Below are positions 37,183 through 43,937 of a DNA stretch of 64,000 nucleotides, piece after piece (positions within the stretch are counted from its first letter, which is position 1; every line of letters begins with the position of its first letter). The position numbers and the translations under genes were made by a program. Source of the DNA: Vreelandella olivaria (GTDB taxonomy: Bacteria; Pseudomonadota; Gammaproteobacteria; Pseudomonadales; Halomonadaceae); assembly GCF_023507745.1 (NCBI RefSeq), contig NZ_JALPZO010000008.1:1-64000 (forward strand), written 5' to 3'. Under the pieces are notes generated by a model. It worked only from the letters and a program-made list of their open reading frames with translations, did not search any database and was not told the DNA's origin.

Positions 37183-39492
37183 CTAATCCACCGGTTTATC
37201 GTAAAGATAGCAGGCCACCTCATGCTCTCGGGCAATTAAACGGCGCGTTGGCGATGCCTGTGCGTCAAACTGGACGCTCAGATAGCCGTTCTGTACCTCT
37301 ACCCGAGCCGCCTGCCAGAAGGAGGGATGCTTGGCAGAGAGTATAGCGTTAAGCTCATCCTGGGCAGTGGCCTCGCTGGCCCCTTCAGCCAGTGCCAGCC
37401 GGGCTGTCAGACCCACCACATTGACGCTGGCCAAGTGATTGATAGCATTCCCTCTGATGCGCCATTCACTGAAAGCAGTGGCCACATCACGCCCCTCCCA
37501 GCCACAGTGCGCCAGCGCCTTGGGACAGCGGGTATGAAAGTGGCAACCATTGGGTGGTTCAACGGCGCTGGGAATTTCGCCGGCACTCTCCAGGGGCGCC
37601 TTCACCACGGCAGGATCAGGCTCAGGGCTGGCATCCAGCAACAGTTGCGTATAGGGATGCTTGCGTTCACGAATCAGGGTATCCGTAGGGCCAACCTCTA
37701 CAATTTCACCCAGATACATAATGGCCGTACGATCCGCCACGTAACGGATCGTAGGCAGGTCATGGCTGACGTAAACGAAGGAAATACCCAGCTCATTACG
37801 AAACCGGCGCATCAGATTCAATACACCAGCACGAATTGACACATCCAGCATCGATACCGGCTCATCCGCCACCATAAAACGCGGCTCCAACACAATACCA
37901 CGTGCAATGGCTACCCGCTGCCGTTGGCCTCCCGACAGCTCATGGGGAAAGCGCTCCTGGTAGGCGCTGGCGGGTTTAAGCCCGGCCCGCTCCAACGATT
38001 CCACCACCCGCCGCTCCAACTCATCACCATCGGCTAAGCGGTGGATAATCAGCGGTTCTGCCACGATATCGTGAATGGTAAAGCGCGGATTCAACGTCTG
38101 ATACGGGTCCTGGAAAATCATCTGCGCACTGCGCCGGAACGCTTTAAGTGCAGCGCCCTTAAGGGCGGCGATATTCTCGCCATCGAAACGAATTTCACCT
38201 GCGGTCACATCCTGCAGTCGGACCAGCATCTCTCCCGTGGTGGTTTTGCCCGAACCTGACTCACCGGCAAGCCCAAGAATCTCGCCCTCACGCAATTCAA
38301 AGTTGATACCATCGACAGCATGAACCTTACGCTCCTGGCGACGGCCACGCAGTCCTTCGAAGAACCCCTGCTCAACCGGGAAGTGTTTCTTCAGCCCTTC
38401 CACTTCAAGCAGCGGTGTCTCGCTCATGCGACGCTCCAAACTTCCTGCTCCTTGCACCTGCTCACCAAGGCGCTCACCGGCAATCTGCCAGGTATCGTTT
38501 CGGGCAGCACGCTGACGGAAGTCTTCTGTTTGATCAGGATAGTGACACGCCGCATGCCGCCCTTCACCCACCCATGCCAATGCTGGCACCTCTTGGCGAC
38601 AGCGTTCGGTCGCGAAAGGGCAGCGCTCGGCAAAGCGGCACCCTGGCGGTGGACTGAGCAGATTAGGCGGGCTGCCTGGAATTGAGATCAACTCCCGCTG
38701 AGCACCTTCCAGGGTGGGAAACGCATTGGTCAGGCCCATGGTATAAGGGTGGAAAGGCGTCGCAAACACCTTCCGCACCGGCCCCGTTTCCATGATATGG
38801 CCACCGTACATCACCGCTACGCGGTCGCAGGTTTGCACGACGACAGAGATATCGTGGGTAATAAATATCAACGCCATGCCACGTTCACGGCGCAGTTTGG
38901 TCAGGCGCGACAAAATCTGCGCCTGAGTCACCACATCCAGCGCCGTTGTCGGCTCATCGGCAACGATCAATTGCGGGTCCAGGGCCAGCGCCATGGCAAT
39001 CACAGCGCGCTGTTTCATACCGCCACTCATCTCATGGGGGTACGCGGACAACCGCCCCGGATCAATCCCCACATCCCGAAATAGCTGCTCAGCGTGTGCC
39101 CAGGCTTCTTTGCGGTCAATTTTCCGGTGGGCACTCATTGCCTCAAGTATCTGATCTCCCACGGTATACACCGGGTCCAGGGCATTCATCGCTGCCTGGG
39201 AGATCCAGGCAATCTCGTCCCAACGCACCTGGCGCATGGCTTCTGGATCGAGTCCTAACAGGTCCCGGCCTGCAAAGTCGATACGTCCTCTTGGCACCTG
39301 TCCATTGGGCGGCAAAAGGCGCAGCATCGCTTTGGCAGCAGTGGTTTTGCCGCAACCTGACTCGCCCACCAGCCCCAGCGCTTCTCCAGGCGCAAGGGCG
39401 AAACTCACGCCATCCACGGCCTGAACAGGGCCAGCTCCGGTTTGATAATGAATGGCCAGGTCGTCGACCGTTAATAGTGGCTGTGTAGTCAT
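37183..39492 (-). CDS. Fused oligopeptide-type ABC transporter ATPase (DppD-DppF fusion)
   Basis: 769-residue cytoplasmic protein made of two complete ATPases of the oligopeptide/nickel type. First half: Walker A GESGCGKT (43-50), signature MSGGM (155-159), Walker B LIVADE, and a C-terminal cysteine motif C285-x5-C-x6-C-x17-C316. Second half starts near Met356 (MSETPLLEVEG): Walker A GESGSGKT (410-417), signature LSGGQRQR, Walker B FMVADE, then C650, C656 and C663, but the fourth Cys is only at 761. In the first half the last gap is 18 residues; here it is 98, so about 80 residues are extra. Overlaps the upstream permease gene by four bases. Confidence 0.92.
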   Translation of the reverse strand: MTTQPLLTVDDLAIHYQTGAGPVQAVDGVSFALAPGEALGLVGESGCGKTTAAKAMLRLLPPNGQVPRGRIDFAGRDLLGLDPEAMRQVRWDEIAWISQAAMNALDPVYTVGDQILEAMSAHRKIDRKEAWAHAEQLFRDVGIDPGRLSAYPHEMSGGMKQRAVIAMALALDPQLIVADEPTTALDVVTQAQILSRLTKLRRERGMALIFITHDISVVVQTCDRVAVMYGGHIMETGPVRKVFATPFHPYTMGLTNAFPTLEGAQRELISIPGSPPNLLSPPPGCRFAERCPFATERCRQEVPALAWVGEGRHAACHYPDQTEDFRQRAARNDTWQIAGERLGEQVQGAGSLERRMSETPLLEVEGLKKHFPVEQGFFEGLRGRRQERKVHAVDGINFELREGEILGLAGESGSGKTTTGEMLVRLQDVTAGEIRFDGENIAALKGAALKAFRRSAQMIFQDPYQTLNPRFTIHDIVAEPLIIHRLADGDELERRVVESLERAGLKPASAYQERFPHELSGGQRQRVAIARGIVLEPRFMVADEPVSMLDVSIRAGVLNLMRRFRNELGISFVYVSHDLPTIRYVADRTAIMYLGEIVEVGPTDTLIRERKHPYTQLLLDASPEPDPAVVKAPLESAGEIPSAVEPPNGCHFHTRCPKALAHCGWEGRDVATAFSEWRIRGNAINHLASVNVVGLTARLALAEGASEATAQDELNAILSAKHPSFWQAARVEVQNGYLSVQFDAQASPTRRLIAREHEVACYLYDKPVD

Positions 39493-41225
39493 CGGCGTGC
39501 CCTCAATCGCGGGTTAGCTACCAACTCAAGCGAGCGGGAGATGAAAAACACGGAGAGCACCGTGATCATGATTAACAGTCCCGGCGGCAGGTTCCACCAC
39601 CAGGCTTCGCGCCAGGCTCCTGATAAGCGCGCGTTATGCAGAATGCCGCCCCAGGAGATCGACTGGGGTGGCCCCAGCCCCAGGAACGATAAGGTCGCTT
39701 CCGCAATAATCGACACCCCAACGATAATTGCCAACTCAAGGAAGACCAGCGGCATCACATTGGGAAAAATATGCAGATACATAATGCGCAGGTCGGACGC
39801 CCCCGCCACCCTGGCCGCTTTAACAAAGGGACGCTCGCGCAGGCTCAACACCTGAGAGCGAATCAAGCGCGCCACGGTACGCCAGGTAAGCAGCGAAACC
39901 GCCAGGATCACAATGAACAGGCTAGGCTCAAACAGCAGCACCAGAATCAACGCAAAGGGTTCAAAGGGGATGCCATACATCACATCCACGGTACGCATAA
40001 GCACCGTCTCGGTGCGCCCCCGGAAATACCCGGCAACAAGCCCCACATTGGCGCCGATCAATACCACTAACGTGGCCCCCAGAAAGCCCACCAGCAGCGC
40101 GATCTGGGAGCCGTGGATATTTTGACTGAACAGATCACGACCCAGGTGATCGGTACCGAACCAGTGCTCGCCCGAGGGAGGTGCCAGGCGATTCACGAAG
40201 CGGTCGGAACCAATGGCGAAATAATGCTCATCGGTGACCATCAGCGCGCGCAAATGGCGCTCTTCGCTGCTGGGCACCAGCCGCCAGTCGGCTCCCGGCT
40301 CGCGTTCAAAGATGATACCACTACGCCCCACCGCGAACGCATGCCCCTCATCGGTGATCCAGCCTGCACGGATGGCACGTGAGTCCGGGGCGTTTTGGCT
40401 TTGCCAACGGGCACTGGCATCCTCACGTATGAGCAGTGTGCCCCGCTCCCCAACGATCAGCCCTGCGCCACTATCAGCAAAGTGAATATGGTTTAAGGCA
40501 CGATTACCGGGCAACCGCTCCAGGCTCACGCTGTCATCTTCAGGATCGAGCCGCAGTGCCAGGCCCCGGTCTCCGACCACCCAGGCGCTGCCATCCACAT
40601 CCAGCGCCACCGCATTAAGGTCAAAACCACGCCCCACAGGGCTTGCCAACGTTTCAACCTCGCCACGGGGGAGATCAAGGCGCCAGATCACTTCACCCCC
40701 GCCCACCAGCAGGGCCGTACTGTCATCAAGCCATACGATACCGTTAATGCCCATTGGTTCGGGCATATCGTAGGTTCGCCAGCTATCATCCGGCGTCCAC
40801 AGTGCGACGGTACCCCGCACGCCCGCCACCAGGGTGGCACCATCCTCGCGGATATTGACTGCATTCAGCGTTGTGGTAAGCGGTGTATCTAGGCGCGACC
40901 AGTCACCCTCTGCATAGCGCCAAACCACGCCATTGCGCCCAACCGCCATCCCCAGGCCATCCCGGTAATCAGCAGCATTCAGGGTTTCATCACCCAGTGG
41001 GGGTAATGCCTCCCAGCGAACCTGCTCTCCCTCCAGGGTGCGGGTAAAAATAGACCCTTCTTCGCGCTCGTTGACCGCCAGGGGCGCATGGGTGGAAAGA
41101 AACGGTGCAAACAGCGCCATGGCGATAATTGACATCAGTACCGCCAACCCTACCAGCGCCAGTCGATCACCGAGAATTGCCCGTACAGGTTCCTGGGCAC
41201 TTTTAAGTAGTCGTGATCGGTTCAT
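39489..41225 (-). CDS. ABC transporter permease (DppC type) with inserted beta-propeller-like domain
   Basis: 578 residues, about twice the usual 280-300. TM1 lies at about 22-42 with the DppC-type start. Residues 356-578 hold the rest of a normal DppC: GTDHLGRDLFSQNIHGSQIAL, further TM helices and the ATPase-contact loop VAGASDLRIMYLHIFPNV. Between them residues about 52-350 form seven repeats starting near 82, 120, 160, 203, 244, 285 and 325, each like LNAVxxxxxGxxxxVGxxGxxxxR. This resembles Ycf48/BNR-type seven-bladed propellers. By topology the insert faces the periplasm. Overlaps the DppB-type gene and the ATPase gene by four bases each. Confidence 0.9.
   Translation of the reverse strand: MNRSRLLKSAQEPVRAILGDRLALVGLAVLMSIIAMALFAPFLSTHAPLAVNEREEGSIFTRTLEGEQVRWEALPPLGDETLNAADYRDGLGMAVGRNGVVWRYAEGDWSRLDTPLTTTLNAVNIREDGATLVAGVRGTVALWTPDDSWRTYDMPEPMGINGIVWLDDSTALLVGGGEVIWRLDLPRGEVETLASPVGRGFDLNAVALDVDGSAWVVGDRGLALRLDPEDDSVSLERLPGNRALNHIHFADSGAGLIVGERGTLLIREDASARWQSQNAPDSRAIRAGWITDEGHAFAVGRSGIIFEREPGADWRLVPSSEERHLRALMVTDEHYFAIGSDRFVNRLAPPSGEHWFGTDHLGRDLFSQNIHGSQIALLVGFLGATLVVLIGANVGLVAGYFRGRTETVLMRTVDVMYGIPFEPFALILVLLFEPSLFIVILAVSLLTWRTVARLIRSQVLSLRERPFVKAARVAGASDLRIMYLHIFPNVMPLVFLELAIIVGVSIIAEATLSFLGLGPPQSISWGGILHNARLSGAWREAWWWNLPPGLLIMITVLSVFFISRSLELVANPRLRARR
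40176..41072 (-). repeat. Seven degenerate coding repeats in the permease gene
   Basis: Codons for residues about 52-350 of the permease. Seven units of 38-43 residues share a hydrophobic-N-A/G-hydrophobic start, a small-residue turn and VGxxG, then an arginine or tryptophan strand. The nucleotide repeats have diverged; the pattern is seen only in protein. Confidence 0.75.
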
Positions 41226-42202
41226 TTGAAGCTCACCCTCGGGTCCAGCATGGTGTAAAGAATATCGACCAGCAGGTTGAGGCTAATGACGAACGCCGCC
41301 ATCACCAGAAAACTGGCCTGGGCAAGCGGAAAGTCAGAGGTACGTACCGAGTTAAGAATCTCGCGCCCCAGTCCCGGCCATGAGAAGACCACTTCAACCA
41401 CCACCTGCCCCCCTGCGGCCAGGCCAATCGTGACCGCTAACTGGGTAACCACGGGTAGCAGCGCATTACGGGCCGCATGGGCATAGAGGATGCGACGCTC
41501 TGGCAAGCCTTTGGCACGGGCCATTTCAATGAAATCTTCCCCATAAACCTCAAGCATGGTGTTACGCATGATCAGTAGCGGTGAGCCCAGATAGTAGAGC
41601 GCCACTACCAGAGCAGGCAGGATGAGATGGTGAAGGAAGTCGAGGGTGAAAATCTTATCGAAGAAGCCCGTCGCCTCGTAAGGCAACGTGCGCATACCGC
41701 TGGTAGGTAGCCAGCCCAGCCCAATACCAAAGATCAGGATAGCGATCATTCCGGTCCAGAACATCGGCGCCGAGCGAAACATCAGGCCGACAAAGATGCC
41801 GCTGGTATCGGCACGGCTTCCGCGACGCCAGGAAAGCCAGGCCCCTAACGGTGCGCCCACCGCATATGCCAGCACGATAGCGGGCAGCATCAGGATCATG
41901 GTGTTGCCCAGGCGCTCCCAGATAATATCCGCCACTGGGGCGCGGTAGTGAAAGGAGTAGCCAAAATCCCCCTGGACAATATTGACCAAATAGATGAAGT
42001 ACTGCTCCCAGATGGGCCGGTCGAGACCAAAGCTGGCGCGGATACGTTCGCGCTCCTCGGGATTCAACCCCTCGGTAATAAGGGCCGCCGTTGGGTCTGG
42101 CAAGCCTAATCGGAATAGAAAAAATAGCAGCGTGGCGATGATAAACAGCGCCATAAAACCGTGGAATACACGGCGTATCAGGTAACTTCTACGTGAGGAC
42201 AT
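41222..42202 (-). CDS. ABC transporter permease (DppB type)
   Basis: 326 residues from the ATG at 42202 (MSSRRSYLIRRVFHG). A GTG 51 bases upstream is the alternative, and neither has a strong ribosome-binding site. Six TM helices, the DppB N-terminal block LRxGLPDP...RASFGLDRPIWEQY, GDFGYSF and the ATPase-contact loop ARAKGLPERRILYAHAARNALLP. Standard architecture, unlike its partner. Its stop overlaps the next permease start by four bases (ATGA). Confidence 0.93.
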   Translation of the reverse strand: MSSRRSYLIRRVFHGFMALFIIATLLFFLFRLGLPDPTAALITEGLNPEERERIRASFGLDRPIWEQYFIYLVNIVQGDFGYSFHYRAPVADIIWERLGNTMILMLPAIVLAYAVGAPLGAWLSWRRGSRADTSGIFVGLMFRSAPMFWTGMIAILIFGIGLGWLPTSGMRTLPYEATGFFDKIFTLDFLHHLILPALVVALYYLGSPLLIMRNTMLEVYGEDFIEMARAKGLPERRILYAHAARNALLPVVTQLAVTIGLAAGGQVVVEVVFSWPGLGREILNSVRTSDFPLAQASFLVMAAFVISLNLLVDILYTMLDPRVSFK

Positions 42203-42296
42203 GACGGACTCGCTATGAACAGCCAACACTCCGCTCCGCCTTGTGAGCAGCACGGCGTGTTGGCAGGCACCTATCGTGTGGGTGAATACGTCGTGC

Positions 42297-43937
42297 TTAG
42301 CGTACTAAGCGACCTTGCTCATCCCAGGAGTAGCCGGCATCTTCAAGTTCGGCACGAGCGGCATCCATATCGAACTCAAACTGTTCGATGAACGCCTCAT
42401 GCCAGTAGTTATTGACGGGAGCAATGACACTGTTCCCCACTTCACCGCGCCCATCGAGTAACACATTAACCATCCGCTCACGGTCAGTCGCCATGGTTAA
42501 GGCACGGCGCACGGCACGATCATCAAATGGAGGACGACGCAGGTTGAAGGTCAGGTGGTAGTAGCCGAAGTCCGGCACATTGACCACCGTGAGGTGATCC
42601 TGGCTCTCCGCCAGACTGATCTGCCCCGGCTCCATACGCCAGGCAGTAACATCAATCTCGCCCGTTTGCAGCCCTGTATAAACCCCCTCCATATCGGCGT
42701 AGATGATGAATTCAACACCATCGACGGCAATATCGTCAGCGTAGAAGTGGTCATCGAACTTACTGATGGCCATAAATTCACCACGGTCAAAGCGCTCAAA
42801 CTGGAACGGGCCTGAACCAACGGTGGGCACATCTACGGGACTCAGCGAGGATGCGTCGTCAATTTCCGACCAGATATGCTCGGGTAGGATGGGGATTTGC
42901 GACAGTGATATGCTGGCGAAAGAGGCAGACGGCTCTTTCAGGTTGAAATGTACGGTACGTTCATCCACCACTTCTGCGTTCTCAAGCGCGGCCAGATAGG
43001 AGTTGAAGTAGCTGTAATCCTGATCGAGATAGTAATTCCACGTAAACGCCACATCTTCGGCGGTCACCGGCTCACCATCATGGAAGGTCATACCTTCACG
43101 AAGCGTCACAGCAATCGTGGTATCACCGACTTGCTCTACGCTTTCCGCCGCCCAGGGAAGCGGTTCCACATCGGCGGATAGACGCACCAGACGGTCGTAG
43201 TAGAGACGCATCCACTTCCATCCCCATACAGACGTGGAAGCCAGCGGGTTAAGGTTGTCAGGCTCCTGGGGGCCACCGATGCGCAGTGTGCCACGCTCGC
43301 CCACCGGCTCCGCTTCCATTGGTCCCCACTCGCTATACAAGCCCTCGCCCGCCATTGGCTCAAATCCTTCAAAGGTATCGTGGTTATAAGCCACCACCTC
43401 ATCCCGGTAGAAAAGCACAATCAGTGGGGCATCCGGCTTATAGAGTTCCTGCATCTCCATCACCAGTTGCTGACGCTCGTCCGGGTCAAAGGCCTGGGAT
43501 TGCTGGTCAAACAGGGCATTGAACTCAGGGTTGTCGTAACCGCCAGGGTTATTCCCCCCAGGATTGGACTGCCGCGAATCCAGGGTGCTTAGAAAAAACT
43601 GCGGATCAAGCCGGTCTGTGCGGCCGGTCCAGCCAAGTATGGTCGCGTCGAAATCCTGCTGGTCGTAGAGGCGCTCAAGCGCGGTACTGAACTCCGTGGG
43701 AGCTACCGTTACATCCAGCCCCAGCTCCTCCCAACGCTCGGCGATGATAAAGGCCGCCTCATAGCGAATCGGGTCGTAAGACTCGGTGGTCGTGGTTAAG
43801 GTAATGGAGGGCATTGGCTCTTGCGCCTGAGACTGTGATGCACAGACCCCCAAACCCAGCGTTACCGCCAGTACCCGCAGCGAAGTGCGTTTCCCACTAT
43901 AGGGTTTTGCCAACGCTTCCGTTATTGCGTTATTCAT
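42297..43937 (-). CDS. ABC transporter solute-binding protein, family 5, permuted order
   Basis: 546-residue periplasmic binding protein with a Sec signal peptide (positively charged KPYSGKR, then VLAVTLGLGV, cleavage near SQAQ, no lipobox). Residues about 42-195 look like the C-terminal third of a family-5 protein (ITLTTTTESYDPIRYEAAF, DFDATILGWTG, NNPGGYDNPEFNALFD, APLIVLFYRDEVVAY). Residues about 215-546 look like its N-terminal two thirds (GTLRIGGPQEPDNLNPL, MTFHDGEPVTAEDVAF, then AARAELEDAGYSWDEQGRLVR at the very end). The order is therefore rotated. Substrate unknown. First gene of the four-gene transporter operon. Confidence 0.9.
   Translation of the reverse strand: MNNAITEALAKPYSGKRTSLRVLAVTLGLGVCASQSQAQEPMPSITLTTTTESYDPIRYEAAFIIAERWEELGLDVTVAPTEFSTALERLYDQQDFDATILGWTGRTDRLDPQFFLSTLDSRQSNPGGNNPGGYDNPEFNALFDQQSQAFDPDERQQLVMEMQELYKPDAPLIVLFYRDEVVAYNHDTFEGFEPMAGEGLYSEWGPMEAEPVGERGTLRIGGPQEPDNLNPLASTSVWGWKWMRLYYDRLVRLSADVEPLPWAAESVEQVGDTTIAVTLREGMTFHDGEPVTAEDVAFTWNYYLDQDYSYFNSYLAALENAEVVDERTVHFNLKEPSASFASISLSQIPILPEHIWSEIDDASSLSPVDVPTVGSGPFQFERFDRGEFMAISKFDDHFYADDIAVDGVEFIIYADMEGVYTGLQTGEIDVTAWRMEPGQISLAESQDHLTVVNVPDFGYYHLTFNLRRPPFDDRAVRRALTMATDRERMVNVLLDGRGEVGNSVIAPVNNYWHEAFIEQFEFDMDAARAELEDAGYSWDEQGRLVR

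Follow-up and report, generated by a model that had tools for sequence, protein, structure and literature searches.

The window, a stretch of 64,000 nucleotides from Vreelandella olivaria, carries a gene for a circularly permuted solute-binding protein (SBP) of an Opp/Dpp-type importer. Very probably it is a working periplasmic protein that was permuted once, long ago, and spread afterwards together with its transporter cassette. Natural permutation of cluster B binding proteins is already known; the case described here concerns family 5. Among the papers listed in literature searches, which covered few subscription journals, none dealt with permutation in family 5. To our knowledge, natural permutation of a large binding protein has rarely been documented. 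The features of the gene and of its cassette are collected in Table 1.

Table 1. Features of the permuted SBP gene and of the adjoining transporter genes (positions in the window)
Feature	Position	Strand	Remarks
Permuted family-5 solute-binding protein, whole gene	42297..43937	(-)	546 aa ORF
Signal peptide and short linker, residues 1-39	43821..43937	(-)	hydrophobic stretch, then SQAQE, ahead of the first homologous part
Part C-terminal in normal family-5 proteins (C-part), residues 42-206	43320..43814	(-)	maps to 1xoc_A 361-511
New linker, old C-terminus to old N-terminus, residues 207-213	43299..43319	(-)	near-constant length
Part N-terminal and central in normal family-5 proteins (N-part), residues 214-546	42300..43298	(-)	Pfam, PDB and HMM matches
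Permease B, OppB/DppB type	41222..42253	(-)	Pfam BPD_transp_1 (133.7 bits) and BPD_transp_1_N
Permease C, OppC/DppC type, 578 aa, propeller between TM1 and the rest	39489..41225	(-)	OppC_N 17-49, BPD_transp_1 394-575
Ycf48-like beta-propeller inside permease C	40191..41060	(-)	PSII_BNR; 5ojp_A profile match
Two Opp-type ATPases, fused, 769 aa	37183..39492	(-)	ABC_tran in two stretches, oligo_HPY in two stretches

Order of the parts, position of the cut and ligand

SBP_bac_5 (PF00496) was the sole Pfam family found in the window SBP (265.8 bits, cut-off 32.4). It matched in two stretches, the better of which aligned residues 259-541 with profile positions 2-283. The canonical linear order of SBP_bac_5 proteins is not followed: residues 42-206 correspond to the last third of family-5 proteins and residues 214-546 to the first two thirds, the C-part thus standing ahead of the N-part. 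By phmmer against PDB sequences, the best match, AppA (1xoc_A), was likewise split into two pieces that trade places (residues 214-537 on 1xoc_A 20-345 and residues 46-201 on 361-511), and a profile of 55 permuted homologues recovered both pieces, with 192.0 and 39.8 bits.

A reference HMM was built from 49 normal-order family-5 proteins. The native window SBP matched it in two stretches (hmm 30-353, 275 bits and hmm 358-504, 98 bits), while the rotated sequence gave a single stretch (hmm 33-504) of 384 bits. The first-pass annotation had proposed that the segment following the signal peptide is the usual C-terminal segment, that residues 40-215 are homologous to the C-terminal part of family 5 and that joining the C-terminus to the N-terminus restores the usual order. 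All three proposals are borne out, the first by the 1xoc_A mapping and the HMM stretches, the second by the 46-201 piece and the 98-bit stretch and the third by the gain upon rotation. The signal peptide had also been said to be kept, and it indeed stands at the front of the permuted chain, upstream of the first homologous part.

Rotation likewise merged the two stretches and raised the HMM score in all 87 untruncated permuted homologues examined (window protein excluded; some species present twice via two collections), with a median gain of 104 bits and a minimum of 52 bits. By contrast, 18 normal-order control proteins outside the HMM build each matched in one stretch, and swapping their parts at the same place lowered the score in 18/18 cases (median drop of 108 bits). 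The new linker is also nearly constant in length, as judged by a distance of 8 in 86 of the 91 untruncated permuted ORFs (repeat copies included). The odd order, taken alone, could point to an assembly artefact, a frameshifted pseudogene or a fusion of two unrelated fragments, but the same order is seen in isolates and metagenome-assembled genomes (MAGs) from many assemblies, the linker length is near constant, dN/dS is low and the operon is intact. We give this explanation practically no credence; chance and artefact are excluded by the rotation gains, the swapped controls and the conserved homologues.

Permutation is known in TpMglB-2 (Tp0684) of ‘cluster Bc’, a naturally permuted binding protein of solved structure (PMC4990184). 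In both cases a subfamily of two-lobed ABC binding proteins shares a natural permutation. They differ in that TpMglB-2 has the cluster B sugar-type fold with another cut, whereas the window SBP matches family 5, and in that the permuted part of TpMglB-2 is poorly similar to canonical proteins, whereas both parts of the window SBP are clearly homologous to theirs.

In an alignment with E. coli DppA, the cut falls at about residue 372 of the precursor, between the helix ‘LLKEAG’ and the following strand. By the domain limits of DppA, this position is inside the C-lobe, and both old chain ends are in the N-lobe. The mature termini are thus relocated, as had been suggested, the N-terminus shifting from the N-lobe to the C-lobe. 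The further suggestion that the hinge strands would lie in a new place is not upheld: since the cut is placed inside the C-lobe, the two hinge strands are expected to be unmoved. Most likely, one two-lobed, cluster C three-domain fold is kept, a prediction based on the full-length profile matches after rotation. In the arrangement that we propose, the old ends would be bridged by the short linker and the new ends opened in the C-lobe, at the boundary between the ‘LExAGY’ helix and the next strand. The protein would fold two-lobed as usual, close on its ligand by the same hinge and hand it to the OppB/OppC-type permease pair. With the permutation, the mature N-terminus would emerge from the protein at another point, as would the lipid anchor of several archaeal members. 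A lipobox was fitted by 11 of 92 ORFs in a simple pattern search, including archaeal L018, L019, L022, L098 and L099 but not L097; the remaining 81 ORFs lacked it. In the members with a lipobox the lipid anchor would also be shifted to the other lobe.

Once rotated, the window SBP is homologous over its full length to OppA, DppA and AppA (family 5, cluster C), and shares with them a signal peptide and an operon with OppB/OppC-type permeases and Opp-type ATPases. Besides its rotation, it differs from them at the ligand anchor. R383 of DppA, which binds the dipeptide (PMC12136057), aligns with E52; D436 aligns with D108, ambiguously, next to a two-residue insertion beside invariant R106. Ordinary dipeptides are therefore less likely as ligands. 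The NCBIfam DppA equivalog model scored only 97.9 bits, against a cut-off of 1005. A derivative of an amino acid or of a peptide, rather than an ordinary dipeptide, is the probable ligand.

Gene neighbourhoods offer further observations. Gamma-glutamyltranspeptidase-like neighbours cluster in 10 loci (L042, L050, L052, L057, L059, L063, L067, L068, L073 and L074), with a gamma-glutamyltranspeptidase match in all four neighbours scanned (L052, L063, L067 and L074), a hint at possible gamma-glutamyl ligands. Other neighbours of permuted-SBP loci include M20 and M24 peptidases and an amidohydrolase, and deeper permuted members adjoin creatininase, hydantoinase/oxoprolinase and D-aminoacylase genes.

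Distribution and history of the older permutation

A search for homologues of the same order, as the first-pass annotation had called for, did find them. The ORFs of 163 loci were scanned part by part and 165 of them contained a detected part. The order was C-then-N in 96 ORFs (including four repeat copies of the window gene and some repeated species), N-then-C in 55 and N alone in 14, with no other order. The window genome itself yielded eight distinct matches; among the seven others, four were N-then-C and only the N-part was detected in three. The same annotation had ascribed the permutation to duplication and trimming, a route left without support, as no tandem intermediate with a doubled part was observed in these 165 ORFs nor in 31 rows of the second family described below. 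Five ORFs showing two C-part stretches carry one copy split by the aligner.

Of 151 genomes from the bacterial family, 9 carry close homologues (E <= 1e-100), the window genome included; they represent 3 of 24 genera. In wide samples the permuted SBP is rare: among 398 sampled Pseudomonadota genomes, with at most three candidates scored per genome, the only positive at E 1e-60 was the window's own. With a diverse profile (A1), 41 of 299 genomes matched at E 1e-50, few candidates being scored per genome; among the matches listed, only the window gene matched the whole model and the others the N-part alone. When 84,980 species genomes were scanned with a pattern, 79 loci emerged. Those from isolates belong to Halomonadaceae, Natronospirillum, Rhodobacteraceae and Hyphomicrobiales, and Natronococcus is represented as well. 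The MAG contigs are labelled Spirochaetota, Trueperaceae, Atribacteria, Chloroflexota, Bacillota, Actinomycetota and Thermotogales, labels that may be wrong, as they come from binning and the contigs are often short. The 20 plasmid matches listed were all single pieces with 90-97% query coverage, including those in Nitratireductor (63%), Halalkalicoccus (37.5%), Ketogulonicigenium, Roseomonas and Maritalea. Only such one-piece matches were considered, as plasmid records ‘covering at least 80%’ may merge two normal-order pieces and were not counted as permuted. The permuted order is thus common to bacteria and archaea, many of them salt-loving, and recurs in Halomonadaceae, Alphaproteobacteria, haloarchaea and MAGs assigned to other phyla.

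An alignment of nine permuted proteins revealed a single common cut. In a tree of the N-part (72 rows), the 23 permuted rows grouped as a single clade, apart from the 49 normal ones (SH-aLRT 99), and the same was observed with the C-part (SH-aLRT 97). Given one permuted clade in both trees, we conclude from these sequences that the older permutation (permI) happened once. Three archaeal loci (L166, L183 and L187) have the same cut, with weak placement in the clade (69). L183 and L187 come from the same Natronococcus genome (G799) as L099, to which they are only distantly related. Two candidates for the nearest normal-order subfamily, L181 and L196, stand near the permuted clade, on long branches.

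Another archaeal permuted protein, L190 (643-2523, (+) strand), is cut a little further upstream than the others and keeps the ‘EAG’ helix at its N-terminus. Drift after the same event could account for this cut. There is no support for L190 as a third event, as a clade uniting permI with L166, L183, L187 and L190 was not rejected (p-AU 0.55; AU tests were run on 52 rows under LG+G4).

The cassette genes were compared with those of L025 and L027. In 7 of 8 comparisons dN/dS was 0.02-0.05; as dS reaches high values (1.05 to 2.57) or saturation, these figures are rough. The remaining comparison, of the SBP with that of L025, had a saturated dS and a pN of 0.065. We propose that the transporter may have spread as a cassette, mainly among haloalkaliphiles.

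The transporter cassette and its propeller

The permuted SBP gene belongs to an Opp/Dpp-type ABC importer, with adjoining OppB- and OppC-type permeases and Opp-type ATPases carrying oligo_HPY. In the window and in L025, the cassette (SBP, permease B, permease C, ATPase) is flanked by ftsH and folP; in other Halomonadaceae loci it stands beside aroE/hemF. These different flanks imply more than one site within Halomonadaceae. Between 36149 and 46155 of the window, the cassette interrupts the ftsH-folP-glmM order, with a G+C content of 0.577 compared to 0.554-0.558 in the flanks. Its sequence context suggests that the window cassette is a transferred insertion.

The gene types are those of E. coli DppABCDF, a peptide importer with DppB/DppC-type permeases (PMC12136057). 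Unlike that system, the window cassette has fused ATPases, does not keep the ligand anchor R383 and carries a propeller in permease C where DppC (301 aa) has a short TM1-TM2 stretch. This insert follows the OppC_N helix and precedes the BPD_transp_1 domain. Its profile matched PDB 5ojp_A (E 8e-14), and Pfam PSII_BNR was detected in the insert alone (31.6 bits, cut-off 27), the score within the whole permease C (26.8) being just below the cut-off. PSII_BNR was found in 14 of 19 inserts at E 0.001. The insert thus resembles, in its sequence profile, the beta-propeller of the photosystem II assembly factor Ycf48, but it sits in a membrane permease of a transport operon and no link to photosystem II was seen. 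A propeller-bearing permease was likewise absent from the papers listed in a literature search that covered few subscription journals.

Of 88 rows, namely the window and L017-L103, a propeller permease is present in 58 and a permease without propeller in 10; the other 20 are fragments that cannot be judged. The SBP score is at least 644 in all 58 propeller rows and at most 398 in the 10 propeller-free rows; every row of the window subclade with a gene complete enough to judge (58 rows) carries the propeller. With a propeller-permease profile, the only match among 274 genomes of the class at E 1e-60 was the window's own, and one plasmid record covers the propeller permease, that of Nitratireductor, together with a permuted partner SBP.

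The propeller subclade is nested within the permuted clade in the trees; the propeller was therefore most likely gained after the permutation. As a general cause of the permutation the propeller is excluded, since deeper members and L166 lack it. ATPase fusion was observed in 52 rows of the propeller subclade (window included; L103 left out as a fragment) and separate ATPases in 10 deeper loci. In haloarchaeal L166, the ATPase is fused (707 aa) and permease C, of 306 aa, has no propeller, showing that fusion also occurs outside the propeller subclade. It may have had several origins, or an earlier one.

In our scheme, the window subclade would have further acquired the propeller, in a periplasmic loop of permease C, as well as the ATPase fusion. 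The P2 loop of MalF is a docking surface for its binding protein, and the propeller could, in a similar manner, adjoin the docked SBP as an extra docking surface.

One could imagine that the permutation was selected for a re-sited docking or tethering end, with the propeller permease as its co-evolved partner in a new importer architecture. Consistent with this, the permease B partners of permuted SBPs form a clade of their own (21 of 68 rows, against 47 normal partners, SH-aLRT 100), the propeller occurs, among the loci examined, only with one permuted subclade, and the lipobox-like signals of archaeal and some other members (the 11 ORFs above) place the anchor on the other lobe. In a wider permease B tree with archaeal controls (108 rows), the support was 70 for the 18 permI rows alone and 94 with L166 included (19 rows). 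However, the absence of the propeller from deeper permuted members (0/10, and L166 too) indicates that it came later, most ORFs have no lipobox by the simple pattern, and the permeases of the haloarchaeal proteins described below do not follow the order of their SBPs. We consider such selection improbable as the origin of the permutation.

A second, younger permutation in haloarchaea

An archaeal control search of genomes and of the records behind the loci led to L194 (1009-2637, (+) strand), in which about 55 normally C-terminal residues sit between the lipoprotein signal and the rest of the protein. A haloarchaeal search gave matches in 76 of 97 genomes. Among the best 30 loci (the query's gene included), 10 displayed this order (permII; L194 and L198-L206) and 20 the normal one (L207-L226). 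L217 had appeared as a permuted candidate from its match range (6-542) and was rejected, its gene order being normal.

After rotation, permII proteins share 62-64% identity with the normal orthologues that match them best, and permease B of permII is 71-74% identical to the permease B of normal partners. The ten permII rows form a clade (98) nested in the normal-order orthologues, so the direction was from normal to permuted. One event behind both permutations was rejected, as judged by the AU test on a single clade of 12 permI and 5 permII rows (p-AU 8e-92). On these sequences, the haloarchaeal permutation is independent of permI and younger, with a different cut.

In the permease tree, permII and normal partners interleave. 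One permease family therefore serves both orders. The first-pass annotation had said that the permutation could alter docking to the permeases, but moved ends need not change docking or partner. This argues against the propeller permease as a co-evolved partner, and favours a neutral origin, in which the fold tolerates new ends in surface loops and a permutation fixed by chance is then carried along with a transferred cassette. Two independent permutations at two different cuts are also in line with neutrality. Conversely, the long stem of the permuted clade and its survival across domains could equally mean an advantage. Neutral fixation does not conflict with the best explanation as far as structure is concerned, and we regard it as reasonably probable. 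On a broader reading, family-5 SBPs underwent two or more independent permutations, and a new architecture grew up around the older one, with its own permease pair and later a propeller docking or holding the SBP by its re-sited end; we rate this reading as less likely than not.

PermI is old, occurs in bacteria as well as in archaea and remains under selection, so the fold, the hinge and the docking have seemingly worked for long with moved ends. PermII is young and of clear direction, and its normal orthologues (and permease partners) are extant. Such before-and-after pairs allow a direct measurement of how topology affects folding, export and docking. For annotation, the permuted genes are a warning that linear models see just part of them. 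Finally, permuted SBPs are natural templates for permuted biosensors.
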